From Sphingomonas sp. IW22 (lineage in GTDB: Bacteria; Pseudomonadota; Alphaproteobacteria; Sphingomonadales; Sphingomonadaceae), in assembly GCF_041321155.1 (NCBI RefSeq), contig NZ_JBGGWB010000001.1, positions 1,747,501 through 1,811,500 of the forward strand: a stretch of 64,000 nucleotides of DNA. The letters run 5' to 3'. Positions 1,666 through 14,531 of this stretch are shown here, piece after piece. The notes under the pieces are model-generated. The model ran no database searches. It was not told where the DNA came from and was given only the letters and a program-made list of their open reading frames with translations. The translations under genes were made by a program, and so were the position numbers. Within the stretch, counting starts at the first letter, position 1. Every line of letters starts with the position of its first letter.

Positions 1666-2179
<514 letters not shown>

Positions 2180-2187
<8 letters not shown>

Positions 2188-2479
2188 CGTGGTCGTCGCT
2201 GTTCCACGCGGCATTGACCGCCCACGCGCCGGCGAGACCCGGCGCGATCAGTGGATGTGCACTGGAGACGCCGGTGTCCAGGATACACACGACCGGCGCA
2301 TCATCTTCAGCAGCGGTCAGGCGACCGGCATAATTATCGACCAGTTCCTGCTGCCCCAGACCGCCTTCGTCGGCCAGAAGCAGTTCGATATTCCCTGCCG
2401 CTTGGCGAATGTCCGTGATCGCGCCGCGCACACCCTCGATGTGCGAGTTGAGGAGAGCGACAATCTGATTTGTGGACAT
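2180..2479 (-). pseudogene. Subtilisin-like (S8) peptidase, N-terminal fragment
   Basis: A start codon at 2479 follows a good Shine-Dalgarno (AAAGGAGGGCTG). The frame gives about 98 residues with the S8 aspartate box (APVVCILDTGVSSAHP) and then DDHASHG, matching the start of the histidine box, where the homology stops. The downstream DNA switches to the recombinase fragment. The serine box and most of the catalytic domain are absent, so no active protease can be made. The fragment is opposite in direction to the cargo operon. Confidence 0.6.
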
Positions 2480-3028
2480 CAGCCCTCCTTTCCGATCACG
2501 TACATTGTGCCTTGTCCGACAACGGACCTTTTCCCCTTCGAAGGCCTACAGGATGGTGCGCGACAGTGCCACATTTGATTGGCACCGATGGCATACAGGT
2601 CGGCAGCACAGAGCCGAAGCGATCACGGCCAGCGAGGCCGTGATCGACCGAGGTTCGAGCCGTCAGGCTGCTTTGGAGCCTTTCGTGACCTTACCTTTAC
2701 GGCGCTTTATGAACGACCGGCTTCGGCATAGCCGGACATTCCCTTTCGCGTCGATGACCGGCAGTGATGTCCCACTTCCCGCCTTTTCGCGACCTCGGCG
2801 CTCCCACTTTAAGCCCCGACCGACTGACATGAACAAGGGTCCGGAGCTGGGAGGCAGCTAGAGCGCGCTGAACGTCCACAACTGGGTCGTCTCAGTCACG
2901 GGTCACGCGGCCAGAATTCAGATCCGCTCTATCGCCAACCTAGGCTTGAGCTGATCGCGCGAAACTGTTACCGTGAAAAAATAAGACAAGGTCGCGCCTA
3001 GCTTATCCCTCTGTGGAGCTCGCGTGTT
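2480..3028. other. Non-coding stretch before the cargo operon
   Basis: No reading frame here resembles a known protein; short frames on both strands conflict with each other. It must hold the promoter of the six-gene operon starting at 3029. An AT-richer patch at 2960-2985 (CTGTTACCGTGAAAAAATAAG) is the most promoter-like piece, but I cannot define -35 and -10 boxes with confidence. Confidence 0.4.
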
Positions 3029-4093
3029 GTGGCCCAAACTCGACGCTTCAGCCGCGCCGCGTCGCGTGGAACATCCCCATTTTGGCTGTTGGCTGTTGCG
3101 GTTACGCTGCCGGGCTGCGCATCCAACGCGATCAGGCTCGATTACGCCGGTGACGTCGCGGGCAGGGCGGAGGTCGCGGCGGCGGCGTCGCGGCGGTACC
3201 TTGCGGAGGTCGACGAAACTCGAGTCGCGGTGAATGTCGATCTGATCGGGATGGACACCGCTTGCGTACCGAACCGCGCCTGGATTCGGCGACAGGCGGA
3301 CGTAGGCGCGATCAAAGCGTCGGATTTCCCGCCGCGTGGCTGGCTGTGCGCGCCCGGCCCGCTCGACGGCGTCACATACCCTGAGCCGCTCTCGCTCGCC
3401 CCGCTCGGACCGGACCTTGAGCCCACCTTTCTGCTCATAGACGCGCTCGGTGCCTATGGGGCCGGGATCGCCACGATATTGGAGGAGGAAGGGCCGGATC
3501 CGGCCGCCGACTTGGTCCACGCGTTGGCGCTGGCGCGCTCGGCGGAAGGCCTGCTCCGCGCGATGGCTGGCGGGGCGGGGCAGCCGGTCGTTCCTGCCGC
3601 TGACGATGTGCGCCTTGTTGCGATCGACGCCTTCATCGCCTTCGTGACCGAGTTGCGGACCGAGCAGCGGAAAGTCGACGCCCTGCGCCGGACGGCCGGA
3701 GCCGGCCCGCTGATCGCCGCCTTGCGGGACCATTTGTCGAATTGGGAGCTGGGGCGTCAGGCGGATGAGAACCTCCGGTTCGAACTCGCCACCGCGCTAC
3801 TTGGCGGGGCGCAGCGCGCCGACGCTCCCCAGCTCTCCAAGGCGATGAGGCGGGAGTTCGGCGCGGCTTATTACGAAGGGGCTGCCGGCCGGACGTCATC
3901 CGCGCGGTTCAAGGCGGCGCTCGACGGAACGCTGGGCGAACTGGCCGCTGCCGAGGCGGATCTGCGGCGCGTCCTGGCCGAAGATCCCGATCTAACCGAC
4001 GCCGAGAGGCGGGAGGCGGCGCGGATCACTCGGCAGCGGCTGACGCGCGCCTTCGACACGCTGTCTCGGCTGCTCTTGGCGTTTGGGGGGTGA
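3029..4093 (+). CDS. Predicted lipoprotein, first gene of island operon
   Basis: A 354-residue protein with a basic N-terminus, a hydrophobic stretch (WLLAVAVT) and a lipobox LPGC with Cys30, so it should be lipidated. The +2 residue is alanine, which by the usual Lol rule predicts the outer membrane. The rest is alanine- and arginine-rich and mostly helical, with no family I recognise. The start is GTG at 3029 with GGAG ten bases upstream. It overlaps the next gene by four bases (GTGA), indicating translational coupling. It is the only member of the operon that clearly leaves the cytoplasm, so it may be the envelope-facing component, but that is inference. Confidence 0.75.
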   Translation: MAQTRRFSRAASRGTSPFWLLAVAVTLPGCASNAIRLDYAGDVAGRAEVAAAASRRYLAEVDETRVAVNVDLIGMDTACVPNRAWIRRQADVGAIKASDFPPRGWLCAPGPLDGVTYPEPLSLAPLGPDLEPTFLLIDALGAYGAGIATILEEEGPDPAADLVHALALARSAEGLLRAMAGGAGQPVVPAADDVRLVAIDAFIAFVTELRTEQRKVDALRRTAGAGPLIAALRDHLSNWELGRQADENLRFELATALLGGAQRADAPQLSKAMRREFGAAYYEGAAGRTSSARFKAALDGTLGELAAAEADLRRVLAEDPDLTDAERREAARITRQRLTRAFDTLSRLLLAFGG

Positions 4094-4431
4094 CCGTGGC
4101 CACGAAAGCGGATCTCAGGGGAGCGTTCCTCAGCCTTTCCCAGACGCTCGCGGCGATGGCCGATCCGAGCCATCCGGAGGATGTGGCGAACCGGCGTCTG
4201 GCGGTGTCCGCGCGGATCGCGGCCGCGGGCCGCCGCGCGACCGACTGGAACGCTCTGCCCCCAGCCTCCGACGCGTTCGAGCCTGTGATCGCCGGCCTGG
4301 ACGCCGCCACTCGCGCCCTGGCCGTCGCGGACGAACCCGCCGAGCACCTCCGCGCGCTCGACCGCGCGGACGAAGCGCTCTTGCGATTGGAGCAAGTGCT
4401 GAACTCGGCCGGCGAGGACGTCGGCGACTAG
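4090..4431 (+). CDS. Small helical protein of unknown function
   Basis: A 113-residue protein, predicted all-helical, with no membrane segment and no motif I recognise. The GTG start overlaps the stop of the lipoprotein gene by four bases; a second GTG lies two codons later. The peroxidase gene follows after 42 bases. Its size and coupling fit an adaptor or regulatory partner for one of the larger proteins. No enzymatic function can be suggested. Confidence 0.65.
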   Translation: MTVATKADLRGAFLSLSQTLAAMADPSHPEDVANRRLAVSARIAAAGRRATDWNALPPASDAFEPVIAGLDAATRALAVADEPAEHLRALDRADEALLRLEQVLNSAGEDVGD

Positions 4432-4473
4432 CGATCGGGCATCCCCGACACACTCTGACGACGGGAGGTTGAG

Positions 4474-6138
4474 ATGGTTTTCACGCGGTACCACGGCGAG
4501 CCTCGGACCAATGAGGCCATGAACGGGGACGGTAGCGGTGACGGCGGCGCAGGCCGGCGCTTCGCAGCGACGGCGACGCCCGGAGGGTATGCGAAGGGGA
4601 ATGATGGAAACGGGCAGGGTCCGAACGGGGCGACCGGCACCGGCTTCGGCTACATGTTCCCCGATCTGCTCGCCGACCCCGACAACCTGCTGCCCGCCGG
4701 CCCCGGCACGATCGCCGCGCTGCGCGCGCTGGGAGCGGCGATGGCGACGGAGGACAGCGCCGCGACCGGCGACGGCGTGGTGCCCGCCGCCTACACCTAT
4801 TTCGGCCAGTTCATCGACCACGACATTACCAAGACGGCGTTCTCCCCAGACATCACGGCCGGGCTGGACCTAATCGAGGCGCACAGCTTCGCGCCGATCG
4901 CGCAGGATCGGGTGACGAGCCTGCTCAGCAACGCGCGGACGTCGGCGCTCGATCTGGACAGCCTGTACGGCGGGCTCGCGCTGGAGGCGACGGAGCCGGA
5001 CGGCCATATGCGTCTGGGTAAGGTCACGTCCGATTCGTCGATCCCCGGCCCGATCGCGGTGGCGACGCCCGAGCATGATCTACCCCGACGGCCACAGAAC
5101 CCCAGTCCCGCTTCCCTGGAGGAGGTGGCGCAGGATCGCGAGGCGCTTATCGGGGATCCGCGCAACGACGAGAACCTGATCGTGGGCCAGCTCCACGTCG
5201 CGTTCCTGCGCGCGCACAACGCGCTGCTCGACCGGTTGGGCAACGCGGACGAGGCCAAGCGCGCTCTGCGTCGCCGCTACCAATGGGCGGCGCTGCACGA
5301 TTTCGTGCCTCGCATCTGCGGCGAGGCGGTTTACGGCGGCCTCGTCGCGGACGGACCGCAGTTCTTCCACGCCGACCATCCTGCCGACCTGGTCATTCCG
5401 CTGGAGTTCTCGGGCGCGGCGTACCGTTTCGGCCATTCCATGATCCGGCAGTCCTACGAGCACAACAGCACCTTTCGGACGGGCGGGCTTACGCCGGCGA
5501 CATTCAACTTCATGTTCACCTTCACGGCATTGTCGGGCGACATATCGGCGCAGCCGGGGCCGGGCGGCAGCCCCACCCTGCCGGACAATTGGATCATCGA
5601 ATGGCACCGCTTCTTCAACCAGGACCCGGACGACCCAGCGTCCCCGAGTGAGAACCCGGCTCGCAAGATCGACACGCATCTCGCCCTGGAGCTCGCGCGG
5701 TTGCCCTCGGCCTTCGGCGAGACGCAGGTGAACGAGCTGATGGGCAGGCTGGCCGCTCGCAACCTCCTGCGCGGCTACCTACTCGGCCTGCCCACCGGTC
5801 AGGCGGTGGCGGCCCGGATGGGCGAAACGCCGATCGCGCCCGACGACCTGCGCGCGCTCGTCACGGGCGAGGCCCTGGACTTGTGCGAGAAGGAGGGCCT
5901 GTTCGACCGCACGCCCCTGTGGTTCTACGTCCTCGCGGAAGCCGAACTCGAAGCCGAGGGCCAGCATCTCGGCCGGGTGGGCGGGACCATCGTCGCCGAG
6001 ACCTTGTGGCAGATGGTGCGGCACTCGCGCGACAGCGTGCTCATCAATCCGCCGGACGCGGACGAGTTGGCGACCGGTGAGTTCACGCTCCGAGGCATCG
6101 TCAAGCTGGGACAGGACACCCTGCTCCCGCCGCTGTGA
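4474..6138 (+). CDS. Animal-type haem peroxidase family protein
   Basis: A 554-residue member of the peroxidase-cyclooxygenase superfamily. The distal motif FGQFIDHDIT has Asp115, His116 and Asp117 (in myeloperoxidase the Asp and Glu residues form ester links to haem and this Asp binds calcium). A calcium-loop-like segment TSALDLDSLYG follows. The proximal histidine is His321 in YRFGHSMIR. No signal peptide or membrane segment is visible, so the enzyme is probably cytosolic, unlike secreted animal relatives. The N-terminal 50 residues are glycine-rich and probably disordered. It is the third gene of the operon, 43 bases before the hydrolase-CHAT gene. It would use hydrogen peroxide to oxidise an unknown substrate. 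The family call is firm; the role is not known. Confidence 0.88.
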   Translation: MVFTRYHGEPRTNEAMNGDGSGDGGAGRRFAATATPGGYAKGNDGNGQGPNGATGTGFGYMFPDLLADPDNLLPAGPGTIAALRALGAAMATEDSAATGDGVVPAAYTYFGQFIDHDITKTAFSPDITAGLDLIEAHSFAPIAQDRVTSLLSNARTSALDLDSLYGGLALEATEPDGHMRLGKVTSDSSIPGPIAVATPEHDLPRRPQNPSPASLEEVAQDREALIGDPRNDENLIVGQLHVAFLRAHNALLDRLGNADEAKRALRRRYQWAALHDFVPRICGEAVYGGLVADGPQFFHADHPADLVIPLEFSGAAYRFGHSMIRQSYEHNSTFRTGGLTPATFNFMFTFTALSGDISAQPGPGGSPTLPDNWIIEWHRFFNQDPDDPASPSENPARKIDTHLALELARLPSAFGETQVNELMGRLAARNLLRGYLLGLPTGQAVAARMGETPIAPDDLRALVTGEALDLCEKEGLFDRTPLWFYVLAEAELEAEGQHLGRVGGTIVAETLWQMVRHSRDSVLINPPDADELATGEFTLRGIVKLGQDTLLPPL

Positions 6139-6181
6139 TCGGCGGACGGGTAGGCTGGACACGGGGCGAGAGGCGGAACGC

Positions 6182-9100
6182 ATGACCGAGATTATCCTCG
6201 CCCCAAACGTCCGCCTGGTTGACGCCGACGCGCTCGCCGTCTCGACGGCACCGCCTGGCGGCCGGCGCGGCGTGGGCAGGGAGCAGGCCGTGGACGACGC
6301 GCTGGACGCGGCGCTCGCCGGCGCCTTCGAGGTGGACGCGGACGTCGTGCTGGCGCCCTCCGGCCGGCGTTCGGCGCCCGGCGCCACGCCCCGCGTCGAG
6401 GTTGGGGTCGAGCCCGACCAGTCTGCGGTGCTGCTGGTCGAGTCGGGGGAAGGGGTCCTCCGATGGGCGTATCCCGAAAAGGGCGCGGTCGCCGATCCCG
6501 TCGGCCGGAGGAGCGCGGGCGGCGGTTCGGACGGACCGCTCGTGTTCGCGCTCGACGACGGGGCGTCTGACCGGCAGCAGGCAGGCGACGGACGGCGAGG
6601 GCTGCTCGACTGGGTCGGCGACCGGCTGATCGACCCGGTCCGCATCCGGGTGCTGCGGTTCCTCGCCGCTCGCACCGTGGACGCCCTCAAGGAGCGGCTG
6701 GAGGGCGGTCACCGATCGGGCCTCGTCGTCGTGGACGGCGACCCCTCAGCTTGGACGCCGTCCGGCGACGGGGCTCGGCTAAGCGGGCTTGCCTCTCCGA
6801 CCGACGCGCCGCGCGTGCTCCTGATGGTGCACGGGACCTTCTCGTCTACAGCCGGGAGCTTCGCGGCGCTGGCCGCCACCGAGGAAGGGCGGCGCTTCCT
6901 GGACGGAGCGAAGGAACGCTACGACCTCGTGCTGGGGTACGACCACCGCACCCTCGACCTCGACCCGATCGCCAACGCCAGCGATCTCGCGGCCGAGCTG
7001 GAGCGGCGGTTGCCCGACGGCGCGCAGATCGACGCGGTCGCATACAGCCGCGGCGGCCTGGTGCTGCGCGCGCTGATCGAGCGGATCGCGCCGGCCGGCC
7101 TCGGCTTCCGACGCGCGGTGTTCGTGGGCTGCACGAACGCGGGCACCAGCCTCGCCGAGCCGGAGAATTGGCGGGTGCTGGCCGACCTGTACGTGAACTT
7201 GCTGGTCGCCGGCGCGCGCGCGGTGGCATTGCTCGGCGGCGAGGCGGTCGCGCCGTTCATCGTCTTCGCGGTCAAGACGCTGGGCCGCTTCGTCCAGATC
7301 CTGCCGGAGGTCGCGGTGCACGGGGAACGCGTTCCCGGTCTGGCGGCAATGCGGCCAGACGGCGATTTCCTGACCGAGCTCAACGCCGAGGCGGCCGGGC
7401 GCGACGGCGTCGTCGAGCCGTCCTATTGCGTAATTGGCGCGGACTTCGAGGCGCGCATCGAACCCGGCCGGGCGATGACCGGCGAACTCGCGCGCTTCCT
7501 GGTCGACCGGGTGGCCGACCGCTTCTTCGGGCGGGACAACGACCTGGTGGTCGACACCGAGTCGATGACGAGCTTCGGCGGCCGCGCGGGCCGGCACGAT
7601 CAGGAGCGCACCAGACTGATCGCGCCGGCGGACGCCGTGTTCCACACCATCTATTTCGCAAGTCCGGCCGTGGCCGGCCTGCTTTCCGAATGGCTACTCG
7701 ACGACGGTCGGACCCGTGGCGTCGCGAGCGCGCTGGAGGACGAGCCGCCGGACTCATGGGCTAGGCGGGGTAGCGGTCTCGCTCCGCCGAACGTGGACAG
7801 GGACGGAGCTTGGGGTTTCGGAAGGTCGGCGGATGCGGCCATGCAACCCGGACCCCCGCGTCGGGGCGTGGACGCGACGACCGTCGACGTCGATCGGGGC
7901 GACAGGAGGACCGCCCAGGCGGCGCCCGCCCCGGCGTCGGACGCCGCGCCGCAGATGGACTGCCATTTCGCCGCCGAGATGGACCGGGCGCCCGATATCG
8001 CCGGGCCCGTTCCCTTGTTCGTCAGCGTCTCGCGCGAGCGCCTCCTCGTTCGGCCAGGGCCGACGGCGGCTGTGACCGAAGCCGTCCCGCTCCGCGCCGA
8101 CCAGGTCATCGAGGTCGAGGTGATCGCGCTGGAGAACTGCGCGGTGGAGGGCGAACCCCTTTGCAAGGTCGCTGTCCCCTCGGGGGGCACGCCGCCCACC
8201 ATCCTGCGCTTCCTCGTAAAGGGAGAGGTGGCCGGTTCGGCCCGGGTGCAGGTGGAGGCGCGGCAGGACGGGCTGGTGCTCGCGAGCTTCATCCTCGAAC
8301 CTCACTTCCTGGACTGGGCCGACCACAAAATCCGCGTGACCCAGGTCACGCCGATCTCGCCCCCGGAGCGGTCCGCGGTGCTGCGCATCTACGAGATGAA
8401 ACGGGACGGACAGCTTCGCATCCGGTACGACCTTTCCAGCGCCGATCCCAACATCGCGGTGACCGCCGAGCAGGAGTTCCCGGCGTCGTTCAACGACGCG
8501 CTGTTCGCCGCCGATCTCATCCGGAAGCTCGAACAGGCATACAACAAGTCGGATCGGAGCTATGATCTGCTGGCGACGGCGTTCGCCGACGAGGCCGCGA
8601 GCGCCACGCACGACCTGATCCCCGAAAAAATCCGGAGAGGCTTATGGAGATGCGGCCGAGACGCCGCCTCGATCCAGGTGATCGCGGACAGCGCCCACCT
8701 GCCTTGGGAGCTGTTCTTGGTGGACGATCCGGACGCGCCCGACATCGAGAACGGGGCCTTTCTGGCCGAATGGGGCCTGACGCGTTGGATGTACAACGCG
8801 CCCGTCCCGCCCGCGCGCCTGCCGATCCGGTCGGGACGGGCGCACTACGTCGTTCCCCGTTATCTGAGCCGAGGGGACGAGCTGGCCGCGGCCGACCGCG
8901 AGGGCGAAATGTTAGCGAAGCTGTTCGGCGCGCAGTCGCTCCAAGCCGACAGCTCCACGGTCCGGAACTATCTAAGCAAGCAGGCGCGCGAGTGCGACCT
9001 GCTCCATTTCACCTGCCACGGCCAGGTCAAGACGGGCGGCGTGGTCATCGCGGACCTGCTGCTCTCCGATCAGCGGGATGAGGCCGGCGCCACGCTCCGC

Positions 9101-9487
9101 GACACGCTCAGTCATCACGCGGTGTGGCGCGCCGCCCGTTTCGGCGACAACGGGCCTAGCGGGATGGTCTTTGTCAACGCTTGCCAGACGGGCCGGCCGG
9201 GTGACGGCGTGGTCCGCGTGTCCGGTTTCGCCGACGCGTTTCTGCGTCCCAAGGGCGGTCATGGCGCGGCCGCATTCGTTGGCGCGCTCTGGTCTGTCGG
9301 AGACGTCCAGGCGTTCGACTTCGCCAGCCGCCTCTATAAACGGATGAAGGAGGGCGACCGGCTGGCCGACGCCGTCCGATCGGCGAGGGAGGCGGGCAAG
9401 AAGCAGGGCGACTTCACCTGGCTCTCCTACACCGTATACGGCAACCCGCAGGCGAGACTGGCGCTCGATGACGCCGTCGTCTCCTGA
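6182..9487 (+). CDS. Alpha/beta hydrolase-CHAT protease fusion
   Basis: A protein of 1,101 residues. Residues 1-190 are a variable N-terminal part. Residues about 215-480 form an alpha/beta hydrolase with an oxyanion-type LMVHGTFSS strand and nucleophile elbow AYSRGGL (Ser289). A linker rich in proline and aspartate and a beta-rich region (about 600-740) follow. The C-terminus is a CHAT (caspase-like) domain with the catalytic pair His946 (LLHFTCHG) and Cys1001 (VNACQTG), then GAAAFVGALWSVGD. The ATG at 6182 follows GAGGCGG; an upstream in-frame extension overlapping the peroxidase gene was rejected. It overlaps the next gene by 20 bases. The order of domains suggests a protease or lipase effector released or gated by a regulatory region. 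Confidence 0.85.
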   Translation: MTEIILAPNVRLVDADALAVSTAPPGGRRGVGREQAVDDALDAALAGAFEVDADVVLAPSGRRSAPGATPRVEVGVEPDQSAVLLVESGEGVLRWAYPEKGAVADPVGRRSAGGGSDGPLVFALDDGASDRQQAGDGRRGLLDWVGDRLIDPVRIRVLRFLAARTVDALKERLEGGHRSGLVVVDGDPSAWTPSGDGARLSGLASPTDAPRVLLMVHGTFSSTAGSFAALAATEEGRRFLDGAKERYDLVLGYDHRTLDLDPIANASDLAAELERRLPDGAQIDAVAYSRGGLVLRALIERIAPAGLGFRRAVFVGCTNAGTSLAEPENWRVLADLYVNLLVAGARAVALLGGEAVAPFIVFAVKTLGRFVQILPEVAVHGERVPGLAAMRPDGDFLTELNAEAAGRDGVVEPSYCVIGADFEARIEPGRAMTGELARFLVDRVADRFFGRDNDLVVDTESMTSFGGRAGRHDQERTRLIAPADAVFHTIYFASPAVAGLLSEWLLDDGRTRGVASALEDEPPDSWARRGSGLAPPNVDRDGAWGFGRSADAAMQPGPPRRGVDATTVDVDRGDRRTAQAAPAPASDAAPQMDCHFAAEMDRAPDIAGPVPLFVSVSRERLLVRPGPTAAVTEAVPLRADQVIEVEVIALENCAVEGEPLCKVAVPSGGTPPTILRFLVKGEVAGSARVQVEARQDGLVLASFILEPHFLDWADHKIRVTQVTPISPPERSAVLRIYEMKRDGQLRIRYDLSSADPNIAVTAEQEFPASFNDALFAADLIRKLEQAYNKSDRSYDLLATAFADEAASATHDLIPEKIRRGLWRCGRDAASIQVIADSAHLPWELFLVDDPDAPDIENGAFLAEWGLTRWMYNAPVPPARLPIRSGRAHYVVPRYLSRGDELAAADREGEMLAKLFGAQSLQADSSTVRNYLSKQARECDLLHFTCHGQVKTGGVVIADLLLSDQRDEAGATLRDTLSHHAVWRAARFGDNGPSGMVFVNACQTGRPGDGVVRVSGFADAFLRPKGGHGAAAFVGALWSVGDVQAFDFASRLYKRMKEGDRLADAVRSAREAGKKQGDFTWLSYTVYGNPQARLALDDAVVS

Positions 9488-12305
9488 TCCGCCCACGGCC
9501 GCGCCGGAAGGCGTGCGGGACCTCCTGGCAGCCGCGCTGGCGTCCGGCGGGGCGAGCGCCGCGGTCGGTCCCATCGTCGAACGATTGCGCACCGTGGAAT
9601 ACTCATTGGAGGACCTGCTGGACGACGTCGCCGCCGTTCAGGCGGGCGTGAACGGCGACCAACGCGCCTCCGCCGTCCTCAACCATATCGTGCGCGATTG
9701 CCTTGGCACCACCGCCGCCGTGCACGAGGCTGCAATCGAGACGATGGCGCATGGCTTTTGCGAGCTGGACGGGAGGGGGCGGGTCGTATTTGCCAATCCG
9801 GCGCTCGCGGCGATTATGCCCGGCTGCGTCGGCCGGGCGTTCGCGCACTGGTTCGGGCGGAGCGCTCCCGATGTGCGCGCCGCCCTCGCGCACGGGAGTG
9901 GCAACCGCGTGCTGCAGCTCGACGTCCGCACGGGGGACGGGCGCAGGCCGGTCCTAGTCGAACTCGGGCGCGTGAACGACGGGAACGCCTCTTTTGCGAT
10001 CGTGACCGACCTGTCGGCCGCGGAGGCGGCCGAGCGGCGCGTGCTGGCGGCGTCGCCCACCGCCATCTTGAAGCTGGGCGCGCGCGGCCGCCTGCGCTTC
10101 GTCAACGCGGCGGCGGAGGAGCTGCTCGGGCGGCCCGCGGCCTCCATGCTCGGCCGAACCGTGCTGGCGTTGCTGCCCGTCCGGGATCGGGCCCGCGTGC
10201 GCGAGGAGATGGCGCGGCGCAGCCTGGGCGAGCCGGGCGATTACGAACTCGATCACCTTCGCCCGGGCGCCCGCCGGCCCAACCGCCTCCATGTGCTTGC
10301 CCTGCCCGATCTCGGCTACGCGGGCGGCAAGCCGGTGGGCACGCTGGCGATGCTGCGCCCGCTCGACGACGGGATCGTAGCGCGCGAGCTCGTGGAGATC
10401 ATCGGGCGGGCCACGGTACCGGCCGACCTGTTCGGGGAAGTGATGGCGCAGGTCGCGCGGCTCATGCCGTTCGCCCAAGCCTATTTGATGGCCTATAGCG
10501 CCGATGCGACTTTCGTCCGGGTGATCGGCTCCTTCCCCGACCGGCCGCCGGCCGACAGGGGCCGCTGGCTCGCCGTGCCGGCGCCGCTTCGGCCGCTGGT
10601 CGACAGGGAGGACGGAACGGGCGGGGCGCCCGACCAGATCTGGCGCGCCTTCGACAGCGCCGGCAAAGACGCCGCCGCCGGGCCGGAGGCGCTGGAGGGT
10701 CTGGGCGTCCGGTCCTTCCTCTACGCCCCCATCCGCGAGAAGAGCAAGCTCAAGGCGGTGCTCCTCCTCCTGGGGCGGGAACCCGGCCTGTACCGGGACG
10801 GCGCGGAGGACCGCCTGCGCGCGCTGGGGGCGATGGACGCGGCGGCGGCCGCGCTGCGGTTGGATCGGGCGCGGGAGCGGTCGTTCGAGCGCAAGTTCCT
10901 GCGCGAGCTGGCGTCGCTCGATGGCAGCCGGGAGATGGCGGCGCGCGTGTGCGAACGGCTGGTCGGCTTCTACGGATGGCAGAACGTCGCGCTGTTCAAG
11001 GTGAACGAAGTGGAGGCCCGGTTCGAGCTTGTCGCGCAGCGCGCCGCGCCGGTGGACGGCATCGACCTGCCGTCCTTCCACACGCAGCCCCTGGCGGACG
11101 GCCTGCTCGGCCTAGCGTTCGAGCGGGGCGCGCCCGTTCGGATGGGGGACGTCGACGACGGCAGCCTCGAGGCGGGCAGATACGTCGCCGGTTCGCCCGA
11201 CACCCGATCCGAAATCTGCGCGCCCGTGCGCCTGGGCGATCGGATCGTGTGGATGCTGTGCGTCGGCGACCGCCGGTCCAGGGTGTTCGAGGGACCGGAC
11301 GAACTGGCGCTGCTTCGGACGATCAAGCTCCTGGAGCCTTGCCTAGCGCGCGCGATCGAGGCCGAGCTGGGGAACCAAGCGCTGGACATGGTCCCGGACG
11401 GCGTGGTGCTGGTCGATCCCGACGGCGTGGTTATGCGATGCAACGCGAAGGCGCGCATGATGCTGGGCGGCGGAGCGGTGGGCCGTCCCTTCGCCGAACG
11501 CTTGGACGATCCAGAGGTCGCCCGGGAGCTGGCCCACGCCGCCAGCGCGCCGCGGGACGTGGTGGTCCGGGACGGCGACGGCGCCCCACTGGTGGTGCGC
11601 ATGCGCCACCAGACGCATGAGAGCGCCTATCACCACCGCGTGATCGTGCTGGAGGACCGCGGCGCCAAGCGCGCCGACGCCAGCTTCGCGCGAGTGGACA
11701 AGGTGCTGGCGGACATGGCCGACCGAGCCCGGGGACCGCTGTCATTGGTGCACAGCTTCCTCGGTGAGATCGCACGCTCGGCCGACACGCGCGAGCCGGA
11801 GGCGCTCGCCGGTTTGGCGGAGAAGGCGTTGAAGCATCTGGACCGCTTCTCATTCGACCACCGGGACGTGTCGGACGCGCTGAGCCGGCGCGCGGACGCG
11901 GCGGGCGGCTCCGCGCCCGACGCGGCGGCGCTGCTCGCCACGCTGCTGGACGAGCTGCCCCCGTCGGTGCGCACCCGCATACGCGTGGAGCCGTCCTCGT
12001 CCGACGGACCGCTTCCCGTCGACGCGCGGCCCGGCGAGACGGCCGAGCTGATCCGCAATATGCTACTCCGGGCGGTGGAGCTGACGCCCGGCCATGTCTC
12101 CACAGAGCTGGCGGCGGACCGCCGGAACGGCGAGGTAGAGCTGATACTGGCCTGCCCCGGCGCGGGGGACGTTCCCGCCGATCGCGATCCGGCCGACCGC
12201 CTGCTCGCCAGGGAGGCGCGCGCGCTGGGTGCGCAGTTCGAACGGCTGGCCGAACCCGGCGGGCAGCGGCTGCGCCTCAGCCTTCCGGAGGCGGGCCATG
12301 TATGA
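9468..12305 (+). CDS. PAS/GAF sensor with degenerate histidine-kinase core
   Basis: A 945-residue soluble protein. The first 80 residues are helical; two PAS-like domains follow (about 85-185 and 190-290), then GAF-like domains (about 310-460 and 475-625), another PAS-like domain (about 635-730) and a C-terminal region laid out like a histidine kinase. The H-box reads MADRARGPL where kinases have MAHELRNPL, so the phosphoacceptor histidine is replaced by Asp752. The N-box keeps one Asn (RNMLLRAVELTP) and the G1 box DTGxG is CPGAG. Catalysis is therefore unlikely. It overlaps both neighbours, by 20 and 8 bases, so its amount is probably coupled to the two CHAT proteases. It probably senses a ligand or redox state and signals by contact. 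Confidence 0.75.
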   Translation: MTPSSPDPPTAAPEGVRDLLAAALASGGASAAVGPIVERLRTVEYSLEDLLDDVAAVQAGVNGDQRASAVLNHIVRDCLGTTAAVHEAAIETMAHGFCELDGRGRVVFANPALAAIMPGCVGRAFAHWFGRSAPDVRAALAHGSGNRVLQLDVRTGDGRRPVLVELGRVNDGNASFAIVTDLSAAEAAERRVLAASPTAILKLGARGRLRFVNAAAEELLGRPAASMLGRTVLALLPVRDRARVREEMARRSLGEPGDYELDHLRPGARRPNRLHVLALPDLGYAGGKPVGTLAMLRPLDDGIVARELVEIIGRATVPADLFGEVMAQVARLMPFAQAYLMAYSADATFVRVIGSFPDRPPADRGRWLAVPAPLRPLVDREDGTGGAPDQIWRAFDSAGKDAAAGPEALEGLGVRSFLYAPIREKSKLKAVLLLLGREPGLYRDGAEDRLRALGAMDAAAAALRLDRARERSFERKFLRELASLDGSREMAARVCERLVGFYGWQNVALFKVNEVEARFELVAQRAAPVDGIDLPSFHTQPLADGLLGLAFERGAPVRMGDVDDGSLEAGRYVAGSPDTRSEICAPVRLGDRIVWMLCVGDRRSRVFEGPDELALLRTIKLLEPCLARAIEAELGNQALDMVPDGVVLVDPDGVVMRCNAKARMMLGGGAVGRPFAERLDDPEVARELAHAASAPRDVVVRDGDGAPLVVRMRHQTHESAYHHRVIVLEDRGAKRADASFARVDKVLADMADRARGPLSLVHSFLGEIARSADTREPEALAGLAEKALKHLDRFSFDHRDVSDALSRRADAAGGSAPDAAALLATLLDELPPSVRTRIRVEPSSSDGPLPVDARPGETAELIRNMLLRAVELTPGHVSTELAADRRNGEVELILACPGAGDVPADRDPADRLLAREARALGAQFERLAEPGGQRLRLSLPEAGHV

Positions 12306-13971
12306 TCGGGTGGTGGTCGCGACGGCCGACGAGGTGTTCGGCGACGGCTTCGGCGCGGTGGCAGACAAAGTCGCCGACGAGATGGCGCGGGGGAGCAGCC
12401 GCGAAACCGCGATGTCGGTTAAGCGACTGCGGGCGTTGCTGGCGAGGCGGGCTGCCGGGCCCGGCGATCTCTTCATCATAGACTTGTCTCTTCCGGAAGG
12501 GGGCGGCGCGACCACGGACGGGTTCGGAGCGGCGTTCGCCCTCGCGGCGGAGCTCCAGGACGGAGCCGATCCCCCCGCGACCATCCTGCTCGCGGCTCTC
12601 GCCGCTCCCGAGCTGCGCAAGCGCGTGGACGTGATGCCGCGCTGTCGAGTCTTCGAAGTGCCGGACGCCGCAACCGATTTCTTCCACGCGGTGGCGCTCG
12701 CCCGCGCGCTCGCCCGGTTGCCCGCCGCCGGTCGGGCCGCCGCGCCCGAGCCGAAGGCAGCCCGGAAGAGGTACGCGCTGCTCGATCTGGACGTGAGGGC
12801 GGGCGGTGAAGTGCGTGCCACCCTCAAGCTGCGCGGCGAGGACCGGGACGACAGCCGGGACCGGACCGCCACCTTCCGCATCGACCCGGACCGACTTAAG
12901 GAGCTTGCTGCGCGGTCGAGCGCGCTGCGCGACGAGTTCTCGGCCAAGCTGGAGCGCGGCGCCGAGTGGAGCGCGTACGTCGACCTCTGGCACGCCCGCT
13001 ACCAGGAGCTAGGCACGGCGGTTAGCAACCTTCTCGACACGAGCCAGTTCGCGGCGTTGTACGCTTTGGCGGAGGATCGCGCCGGCAAGAACGCCCGGGT
13101 CCGCTTCAACCTCGACGGGGAAAGCTTCGGGGTCTGCTGGGAGGCCGCGTTCAAGGGCACAAGCTGGATGGCCGTTGACACCACGGTGATTCGGCGCGTC
13201 AGCGACGCGGACGGCAGATCGGAGGCGCAGCTCGACGGCGGCGACGGTCGACTGGACGTGCTTGTGGTCGAGTCCGACCCCGCGCCCGACGCGCGCTACG
13301 ACGGACCGCAGGACGCGCAATGGCGGGCCGAGTGGAAAGAGAAGGCCAGACGGGGCTTTCCCCGCGTTCCCGGCCTTCCACAGGAGCGCGCCGTCTTCGA
13401 GAAGCTGGACGGCCGGCCGAACTTCAGCGCCCGTATCCTGCGCTCGCAGGATCGGGCCGGGCGGTTCGATCTTCGCCAGGAGCTGCGCGACGAGCTGCTG
13501 AGCCCCAGGGATCGGCCCTACGACGTGGTGCACTTCGCCGGCCACGCGATATGCCCCGACACCGGCCCGGACGCGCGCGGCTATCTGGTGCTGGCGGGCC
13601 GGCCGAACAATTATGCCTTGCCGATCGGCGTCTTCGCGGAGTGGCTGGCCGAGGCAGGCGTGCGGCTGGCCTATCTGAGTTGCTGCCGTTCAGCCGCCCC
13701 GCGCGCCACCTTCGAGCTCGCGCGCAAGCGCATCCCGCTGGCGCTCGGCTTCAGTTGGGATCTGGACGGCGGGGGCGCCGCCGAGTTCGCTGAGGAATTT
13801 TACGGCCGGCTCCTCGACAACGACCTGCGCGTGTGCCGCGCGTTTCAGGAGACTAAGGCGGCGCTGCACGACCTTCATCGGACCGGCAGCCCAATCTGGG
13901 CGTCGCCCGTGCTCGTGACGCAGCCCATGGAATGGCTGGACGTGGAGCGCTGCCTCGGTGCCGTCTCCTGA
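12298..13971 (+). CDS. Receiver-like domain-CHAT protease
   Basis: A 557-residue protein. Residues 1-140 have the alternating strand-helix pattern of a response-regulator receiver, with Asp62 in FIIDLSLPEG at the phosphoacceptor position, but the acidic pair after strand 1 is reduced to a single Asp. A linker and helical region lead to a CHAT domain with His416 (VVHFAGHA) and Cys462/Cys463 (YLSCCRS); by alignment to the SACET motif Cys463 is probably catalytic. The ATG at 12298 overlaps the sensor's stop by eight bases and is preceded by GGAGG at about 12286. It ends the operon. The preceding pseudo-kinase and this receiver-like domain look like partners. Confidence 0.8.
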   Translation: MYDRVVVATADEVFGDGFGAVADKVADEMARGSSRETAMSVKRLRALLARRAAGPGDLFIIDLSLPEGGGATTDGFGAAFALAAELQDGADPPATILLAALAAPELRKRVDVMPRCRVFEVPDAATDFFHAVALARALARLPAAGRAAAPEPKAARKRYALLDLDVRAGGEVRATLKLRGEDRDDSRDRTATFRIDPDRLKELAARSSALRDEFSAKLERGAEWSAYVDLWHARYQELGTAVSNLLDTSQFAALYALAEDRAGKNARVRFNLDGESFGVCWEAAFKGTSWMAVDTTVIRRVSDADGRSEAQLDGGDGRLDVLVVESDPAPDARYDGPQDAQWRAEWKEKARRGFPRVPGLPQERAVFEKLDGRPNFSARILRSQDRAGRFDLRQELRDELLSPRDRPYDVVHFAGHAICPDTGPDARGYLVLAGRPNNYALPIGVFAEWLAEAGVRLAYLSCCRSAAPRATFELARKRIPLALGFSWDLDGGGAAEFAEEFYGRLLDNDLRVCRAFQETKAALHDLHRTGSPIWASPVLVTQPMEWLDVERCLGAVS

Positions 13972-14510
13972 CGACGACAGATACGCCCACGCTTGCCGTG
14001 CTGATCGTCGTGGCGGCCGTTTCCTGCCGTCGAGGTTACCCGCCTATAATTCAAACCTGCTTTAGCGGCCGTGCGTAGCGCAGCGGCAATGCCGGCCGCA
14101 GGACCTCAGGCGAATTGGTTGTCCACTTCGTCGGTTGTGGTCGGCCGCGCGGCCGCGAACTGCTGGAGCATGTTCCCTGCTTCCAGCTCGGCCACGAGTT
14201 CGTCGGCCAGTTGCTTCAGCGAGCGCGCTCGAGCCCGGCCTGGTTGCGCGTAATCTCGACAGAGCCTGAGATCAGGACATTGCAAGTCTCACCGGACGTT
14301 TACTGTGAGGCCGCCTGCCTCGGCCCGGTCCAGCCTCAGCAAACTCTTAGCCGCTAAGCGACGGAACTCGGAATCGGCCGCAGTTCCAAGGTGAACGAAT
14401 GACCGGTTTAAGAAAGTTCCCGAGGCGGCCTGAATAGCGACTTCTGGGTCTTTATAGCCGAACAGGGACGATGATCCCGGTCGGCAAGTGGAAGCGAGTT
14501 CTACACCGGC
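13972..14510. other. Island right end with degraded coding remnant
   Basis: No intact gene is visible. On the minus strand, 14106-14290 reads like the C-terminal end of a protein (RSLKQLADELVAELEAGN in one frame, VLISGSVEITRNQAGLERAR in another), joined only if a frameshift near 14230 is allowed. I do not recognise the family. The rest shows nothing beyond short chance frames. Confidence 0.35.
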
Positions 14511-14531
14511 CAAATCCTGTCCCCGCAACCA
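14511..14531 (+). repeat. attR: second copy of tRNA-fMet 3' end
   Basis: An exact 21-base copy of 1722-1742, including the encoded CCA, with unrelated sequence immediately upstream. It marks the right boundary of the island and lies 15 bases before a strong terminator. Confidence 0.85.

Follow-up and report, generated by a model that had tools for sequence, protein, structure and literature searches.

A sensor whose histidine-kinase-type core has lost key residues, paired with a predicted receiver–CHAT protease on a tRNA-Met island of Sphingomonas sp. IW22

The 64,000-nucleotide stretch of Sphingomonas sp. IW22 analyzed here (the window) carries an operon of six genes, g1-g6, at positions 3029-13971, the last two of which encode a sensor with a histidine-kinase-type core (g5) and a protein that joins a predicted receiver domain to a CHAT protease (g6). 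An initial annotation, made from the letters of the window, had described the six genes as one module of two CHAT proteases, a haem peroxidase, a pseudo-kinase, a hydrolase and a lipoprotein on a tRNA island. The layout of that description was reproduced exactly when the coordinates and lengths of the six open reading frames (ORFs) were computed: all lie on the + strand, g1 and g2 overlap by 4 bases, gaps of 42 and 43 bases separate g2 from g3 and g3 from g4, and overlaps of 20 and 8 bases join g4 to g5 and g5 to g6. The guanine-plus-cytosine (GC) content of the third codon position is 0.79-0.88 across all six genes, and scans returned one promoter (0.7 expected) and three terminators (7.5 expected). 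The module is smaller and more unusual than first described: a two-component pair, remodelled so that its output is of the caspase type, sits on a precisely bounded tRNA island among exchangeable enzymes.

The protein g6 (12298-13971, + strand, 557 residues) begins with the predicted receiver domain (12298-12729, + strand), in which Asp62 is encoded at 12481-12483, and continues with the CHAT protease (12769-13962, + strand), in which His416 and Cys463 are encoded at 13543-13545 and 13684-13686. The CHAT part matched Pfam PF12770 at 2.7e-14 (53.7 bits; cut-off 24), and both residues of the His-Cys dyad are present in all 17 g6 relatives from the loci described below. As g4 also matches PF12770, the two CHAT proteins of the initial annotation are borne out by Pfam; they are the sole CHAT matches in the bacterium's own genome at an expectation value (E) of 0.001. 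The N-terminal domain, which that annotation had overlooked along with the boundaries of the island, was modelled with the fivefold beta-alpha fold of a receiver. Because g6 starts with this predicted receiver domain, g5-g6 resembles a remodelled two-component system; the receiver Asp, conserved in canonical systems, is present in seven of the 17 relatives.

The partner g5 (9468-12305, + strand, 945 residues) is a PAS-PAS-GAF-GAF-PAS sensor that ends in a histidine-kinase-type core without key residues (11658-12290, + strand), where a pair of long helices precedes a catalytic-like domain; this agrees with the pseudo-kinase first named as the likely controller. PAS and GAF domains were matched by Pfam, an AlphaFold2 model built from 14 sequences (predicted local distance difference test, pLDDT, 80.7; predicted template-modelling score, pTM, 0.51) gave the order of elements, helices and catalytic-like domain included, and the domain names were read off this order together with the Pfam matches. 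A Foldseek search with the predicted structure returned plant phytochromes at the top (2.5e-19), followed by bacteriophytochromes, sensor kinases and others. The window g5 sequence alone gave no histidine kinase match in Pfam. A profile of the C-terminal part from 17 sequences matched histidine kinases of the PDB at 1.1e-11 over positions 30-244 of 249, spanning both the dimerization and histidine phosphotransfer (DHp) domain and the catalytic-like domain, as expected of the histidine kinase superfamily; RetS and DivL are in the match list, DivL at E 0.001.

Key residues of phosphate transfer were missing from this core. None of the 17 sequences has the phospho-acceptor His of canonical two-component systems at the aligned column, which reads D,S,N,R,A,G,Q,A,A,T,Q,Q,Q,A,A,L,Q and is Asp in the window copy (residue 752, 11721-11723); the column that follows is Gln in 15 of 17. 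The second Asn of the N-box is also absent from all 17, and the canonical N-box Asn pair, which serves ATP/Mg binding, is therefore found in none. Seven of the 17 g5 relatives lack the first PAS domain (including that of locus L033, which begins at a contig end), and the input end of g5 therefore varies.

When 72,556 plasmid records were searched at E 1e-5, g6 matched three records and g5 matched the same three, with the genes adjacent in 3/3. Further g5 seeds from Bradyrhizobium (one record) and Caballeronia (two records) matched only plasmids already in the list of pairs, and the Bradyrhizobium g6 seed matched the same plasmid record as its g5 counterpart. A profile of four g6 proteins (A1; the window and the three plasmids) was turned into two peptide patterns; a scan of genome_contigs, which covers 84,980 species by its own description, with these patterns returned 31 g6-like loci. 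A g5 relative lies directly upstream in 13 of them, namely the twelve best-ranked of the 31 (L023-L034) and L036; the other 18 were left out of the pair analysis. The window, the three plasmid loci and these 13 genome loci make up 17 pair loci, several of which are cut by contig ends (L030, L033, L034). In all 17, g5 and g6 are on the same strand and at most 36 bases apart, at a median pairwise identity of 21% for g5 and 21% for g6. By their names the loci presumably belong to alpha-, beta-, gamma- and deltaproteobacteria. Occurrences of the pair are few: in the class, four of 385 genomes matched the g6 profile (the bacterium's own and three with partial CHAT matches), the g5 kinase core matched one of 274 genomes of the phylum (its own), and g6 had no match among phage records.

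The surroundings of the pair vary among the 16 other loci. Counts of neighbours are lower bounds, as 33 neighbour proteins, none of them from L027, L028, L033 or L034, were put through Pfam. At least seven of the 16 carry a third gene of unknown family, encoding about 425 residues, right after g6 (L014:14433-15716, L024:10440-11759, L026:10401-11714, L027:10600-11883, L028:10868-12205, L032:10433-11695 and L033:3939-5216); the three of its products that were scanned had no Pfam match, the one scanned with PADLOC had none there, and the gene is a candidate substrate or effector. A second CHAT protein is found in at least five of the 16 (L025, L029, L031 and L036 by Pfam, L030 by clustering), and other peptidases in at least four (S8 and trypsin in L013, S8 in L014 and L023, M6 in L032). 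In the Sinorhizobium meliloti locus L013, the pair is accompanied by Endonuclease_NS with Trypsin_2, Trypsin_2 with EAD1, and S8; phospholipase D is found near it in L014, TIR, SLATT and pentapeptide repeats in L012, and two proteins of the metallo-beta-lactamase (MBL) fold in L023 (Mesorhizobium). PADLOC gave weak matches for three of ten neighbours, labelling the TIR protein as bSEFIR and two trypsin proteins as nacht, RT-Protease or LmuA. Near the pair and a g4 relative in L029, a further protein (L029:14955-18632) joins CHAT to a region resembling a NACHT/AAA-type NTPase by weak Pfam matches below the cut-off. As a separate observation, genes for CHAT, caspase, TIR, S8 and metallophosphoesterase proteins are densely clustered in L005, on an Agrobacterium plasmid.

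Directly upstream of the pair in the window, g4 (6182-9487, + strand, 1101 residues) consists of DUF7379 (6818-7384; 2.7e-58), DUF7363 (7973-8293; 1.9e-19) and CHAT (8876-9397; 3.7e-17, 63.1 bits, cut-off 24), with HFTCHG and VNACQTG retained in the CHAT part. The motifs MVHGTF and AYSRGG, together with a weak DUF7379 match in an LCAT-type protein of L025 (7.6e-4), suggest that DUF7379 is an alpha/beta hydrolase. The hydrolase of the initial annotation would thus be present, as the N-terminal half of g4 and not as a separate gene. No relative turned up when genomes were scanned with the g4 sequence alone. Among 100 relatives there were two matches (its own genome and one weak match to the CHAT part), 60 genomes of the same genus held no full-length relative and just one weak CHAT-part match, and in the phylum four of 398 genomes matched, namely its own, one full-length at 44% identity and two partial. 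The full-length relative, in genome G619, stands beside another CHAT gene, with no g5, g6 or peroxidase adjoining. Two of the 16 other pair loci have g4 relatives, full-length in L029 and by the CHAT part only in L025, and both carry TCAD7 of Pfam.

The first three genes are of more local occurrence. A lipoprotein had been proposed for g1 (3029-4093, + strand, 354 residues) and is kept as putative, its basis being solely a lipobox-like LPGC near the N-terminus, read by eye; g2 (4090-4431, + strand) encodes 113 residues. Neither has a Pfam family even at a limit of E 10, and g1 matched two of 385 genomes of the class, its own and a weak partial one. The haem peroxidase g3 (4474-6138, + strand, 554 residues) is of the animal type, as first named (An_peroxidase PF03098, 8.6e-15; lactoperoxidase, 2.8e-6), and has relatives in eight of 385 genomes of the class at 1e-40, its own included. 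No relative of g1, g2 or g3 was found by phmmer at E 1e-3 in the 16 other pair loci, some of which are cut by contig ends, and none of eight genomic peroxidase relatives (seven from the class and G619) has g4, g5 or g6 within about 7.5 kb, two of these loci being cut by a contig end. The peroxidase was consequently rejected as a dedicated partner for lack of recurrence, four of 34 plasmid peroxidase records and the eight genomic loci having been inspected. The conserved unit is g5-g6, with g4 as an occasional partner, and the peroxidase looks like a local addition. As separate observations, the plasmid relative closest to the peroxidase (54.5% identity; L015:9788-20684) has a DyP-type peroxidase, a C25 peptidase, a ferritin-like gene and a radical SAM gene nearby; a papain-like (C1) protease directly follows the haem peroxidase in Palleronia (L017:9791-13548 and L082:8816-12677); and the G350 locus has an order similar to the Palleronia peroxidase-C1 arrangement, its C1 label being judged by eye.

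The tRNA island first proposed around the operon is real and its borders can be defined. The window opens inside a gene for 23S rRNA, after which come 5S rRNA (1480-1594) and tRNA-Met (1666-1742). The last 21 bp of the tRNA-Met gene, its 3' end (1722-1742, + strand), are repeated identically and directly at 14511-14531 (+ strand). Joined together, the outer flanks (235 bases, with the junction behind base 130) align with C2:1-225 of the same genome without a break (query 11-235, 99%), and this is an empty site at another tRNA-Met locus; the junction is also spanned in some genomes of the same genus, for example G008 (query 51-194, 89%). Because the segment is bounded by the repeat and the joined flanks match an uninterrupted site, 1743-14531 (12,789 bp) represents a 12.8-kb insertion that carries the operon. 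Two ORFs at its left end appear to be remnants. One (2048-2479, - strand) is a truncated S8 subtilase (Peptidase_S8, 1.1e-5, profile positions 2-59 of 288 only), which matched a PHROGs family of unknown function at 2.9e-5; S8 genes also lie near the pair in L013, L014 and L023. The other (1699-2214, - strand) has no Pfam match and may be the C-terminal remnant of a recombinase; tblastn found relatives in 33 plasmid records at about 50% identity at best, of which, among ten matches listed, one is 'zinc ribbon domain-containing' and the rest are hypothetical or unannotated. In PHROGs this ORF, g1 and g2 gave matches only at E 0.016-0.026.

We consider that there is an even chance that g5 is a kinase-dead PAS/GAF sensor that switches the receiver–CHAT protein g6 by docking, instead of by phosphate transfer, and that g6 then cleaves neighbouring effectors. 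This reading builds on the adjacency of the two genes, the residue losses, the retained CHAT His and Cys, the variable neighbours and the insertion as an island, and on the predicted receiver fold and the predicted three-dimensional fold of the kinase-like core. A small ligand or redox cue would be sensed by the PAS and GAF domains of g5, and the kinase-like core would then alter its hold on the g6 receiver, so that the signal would cross an interface of the kinase–receiver type. Since the kinase residues are gone, g5 likely signals by such a changed contact. The protein g6 would act as an initiator protease, and its most likely target here would be g4, which combines a probable hydrolase with a second CHAT domain; the two proteins would form a hierarchy like that of initiator and executioner caspases. 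The hydrolase of g4 would attack membrane lipid, and the peroxidase would add oxidants, with the latter and g1-g2 as local extras. For a caspase-activated pro-effector, canu provides a precedent in phage defence (PMC12799240). The island may have a role in defence or cell death, and its purpose would probably be abortive defence against phage or mobile DNA. A wider proposal, to which we give somewhat less than an even chance, is that the pair belongs to a phosphate-free two-component family in which receiver docking alone fires a receiver-caspase as a universal trigger for plug-in effectors; with the same reserve, a lipid hydrolase–CHAT protein, subtilase, trypsin-nuclease, phospholipase D, TIR and peroxidase would be its interchangeable effectors.

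Several points weigh against the docking reading. The pTM of the g5 model is only 0.51, the first N-box Asn is kept in one of the 17 sequences, which is the window copy, and Asp62 is kept in the window g6, which makes phosphorylation by another kinase possible. A shifted His occurs in six of the 16 other g5 relatives (+1 in L025; +3 in L014, L024, L026, L027 and L032), where a shifted acceptor is possible; the window g5 has none in this stretch. In 18 of the 31 g6-like loci, no g5 relative was reached at E 1e-3. The adjacency in the scan is partly selected, because profile A1 was made from four pair-bearing loci and the 17 loci are defined by both genes; its informative part is therefore the spacing and the proportions 3/3 and 13/31. 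The freer test of adjacency, the plasmid searches, comprises three records only, and the Caballeronia g6 seed had no plasmid match at 1e-15. The correlation between the pairwise distances of g5 and g6 across the 17 loci (r 0.98; 0/5000 permutations) counts in favour of the pair but in part reflects shared species history. Finally, PADLOC-DB 2.0.0, a library that dates from 2023, gave no family for the six operon proteins at E 0.001; this result is also in keeping with the initial annotation, which knew of no named system with such a composition.

The same pair could serve a stress, starvation or developmental switch through regulated proteolysis instead of immunity. We regard this as unlikely, yet as the foremost of the alternatives; an island-borne, divergent and patchy distribution speaks against such a switch, as do the absence of a full-length g4 relative from the 60 same-genus genomes and the peptidase, nuclease and TIR neighbours, which recall effectors of predicted conflict systems in the passages of eLife 52696 used here. 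The retained Asp62 would also suit a receiver that works in this bacterium, with its phosphate supplied by another, active histidine kinase that the host encodes and g5 as a scaffold or antagonist. That arrangement seems improbable, as the Asp is replaced in ten of the 17 relatives while the pair stays intact, and the plasmid records with g5 are those with g6.

The interpretation of the initial annotation, in which the six genes evolved together as a single defence module, the peroxidase being its dedicated effector and the lipoprotein its link to the envelope, draws on the tight overlaps, the single strand and the common island, and on the peptidases that lie close to peroxidase relatives in L015, in L017 and, as judged by eye, in L082. 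It was partly supported as a whole, but the co-occurrence of the six families in other genomes, which it had named as its own check, was never seen: g1, g2 and g3 were found in none of the 16 other pair loci, some of them cut by contig ends, g4, g5 and g6 are near none of the eight genomic peroxidase relatives, and g4 occurs in G619 with no g5, g6 or peroxidase beside it. The six-gene unit was rejected as a conserved system, the peroxidase relatives lying elsewhere, and we place this reading marginally below the working receiver. Decaying cargo, with genes brought together by chance on an island that also holds broken pieces and with no joint function, is hardly credible; the truncated S8 ORF and the recombinase-like remnant near the left border would fit it, but six open frames with high third-position GC, the retained catalytic CHAT residues and the recurrence of g5-g6 together at 21% median identity would not.

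Two-component systems are the standard sensor logic of bacteria, and caspase-family proteases are a recurrent output of death and immunity. If the docking reading is true, the pair represents a new gating of caspases, uniting two-component sensing with caspase output minus the phosphotransfer residues; under the wider proposal it would be a bacterial sensor-to-caspase circuit assembled from two-component parts. The lost His and N-box Asn, set against the kept CHAT dyad, give a clear prediction. In addition, the varying neighbours, among them the third-gene family of seven of the 16 other loci, are candidates for effectors that proteolysis would activate.

Among known systems, canonical two-component systems share the arrangement in which a receiver-output protein directly follows a sensor that has a histidine-kinase-type core; the present pair, however, has no aligned His, no second N-box Asn, an optional receiver Asp and a protease as output. 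Plant phytochromes and DivL signal without normal kinase activity, the former having a kinase-related domain, and g5 matches such kinase-deficient sensor kinases by Foldseek (plant phytochromes) and by the core profile (DivL). We know of none that is linked to a protease.

The comparison extends to systems with caspase-like proteases. Craspase, the type III-E CRISPR complex with the TPR-CHAT protein Csx29, receives its input from CRISPR RNA via gRAMP in the part of its description used here (PMC9729208), whereas a PAS/GAF sensor and a receiver take this place in the pair; Pfam found no Cas family among the six operon proteins. In canu (CanABC), a linked pro-effector is switched on against phage T4 by a caspase-family protease together with an accessory protein (PMC12799240). 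MBL-fold proteins also stand by the pair in Mesorhizobium (L023), but CanA is MALT1-like and not a receiver–CHAT protein, and section 8 of that paper mentions no sensor kinase. The canu combination of a MALT1-like caspase with a linked, gated MBL nuclease was not found in the operon, and no MBL family occurs among the six island proteins. Excerpts of eLife 70394 mention receivers without kinases as potential effectors. In the passages of eLife 52696 used here, predicted conflict systems include caspases paired with alpha/beta-hydrolase, as well as trypsin, S8, NucA, EAD1, SLATT, TIR and pentapeptide repeats, histidine kinase domains are reported absent from vWA-associated effectors, and the phospholipase D, M6 and MBL proteins of the pair loci do not appear. 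The six window proteins include no MoxR, vWA, EAD or NucA family, and hence neither the MoxR-vWA combination nor the core of the NucA-peptidase System 3, a NucA endonuclease with trypsin; the latter core is present beside the pair in L013. The effector pool of the MoxR-vWA/VMAP ternary system and of 'System 3' (Kaur et al., 2020, eLife 52696), as given in those passages, overlaps the neighbours of the pair, and g5-g6 is rated as a variant of the CHAT-based conflict systems.

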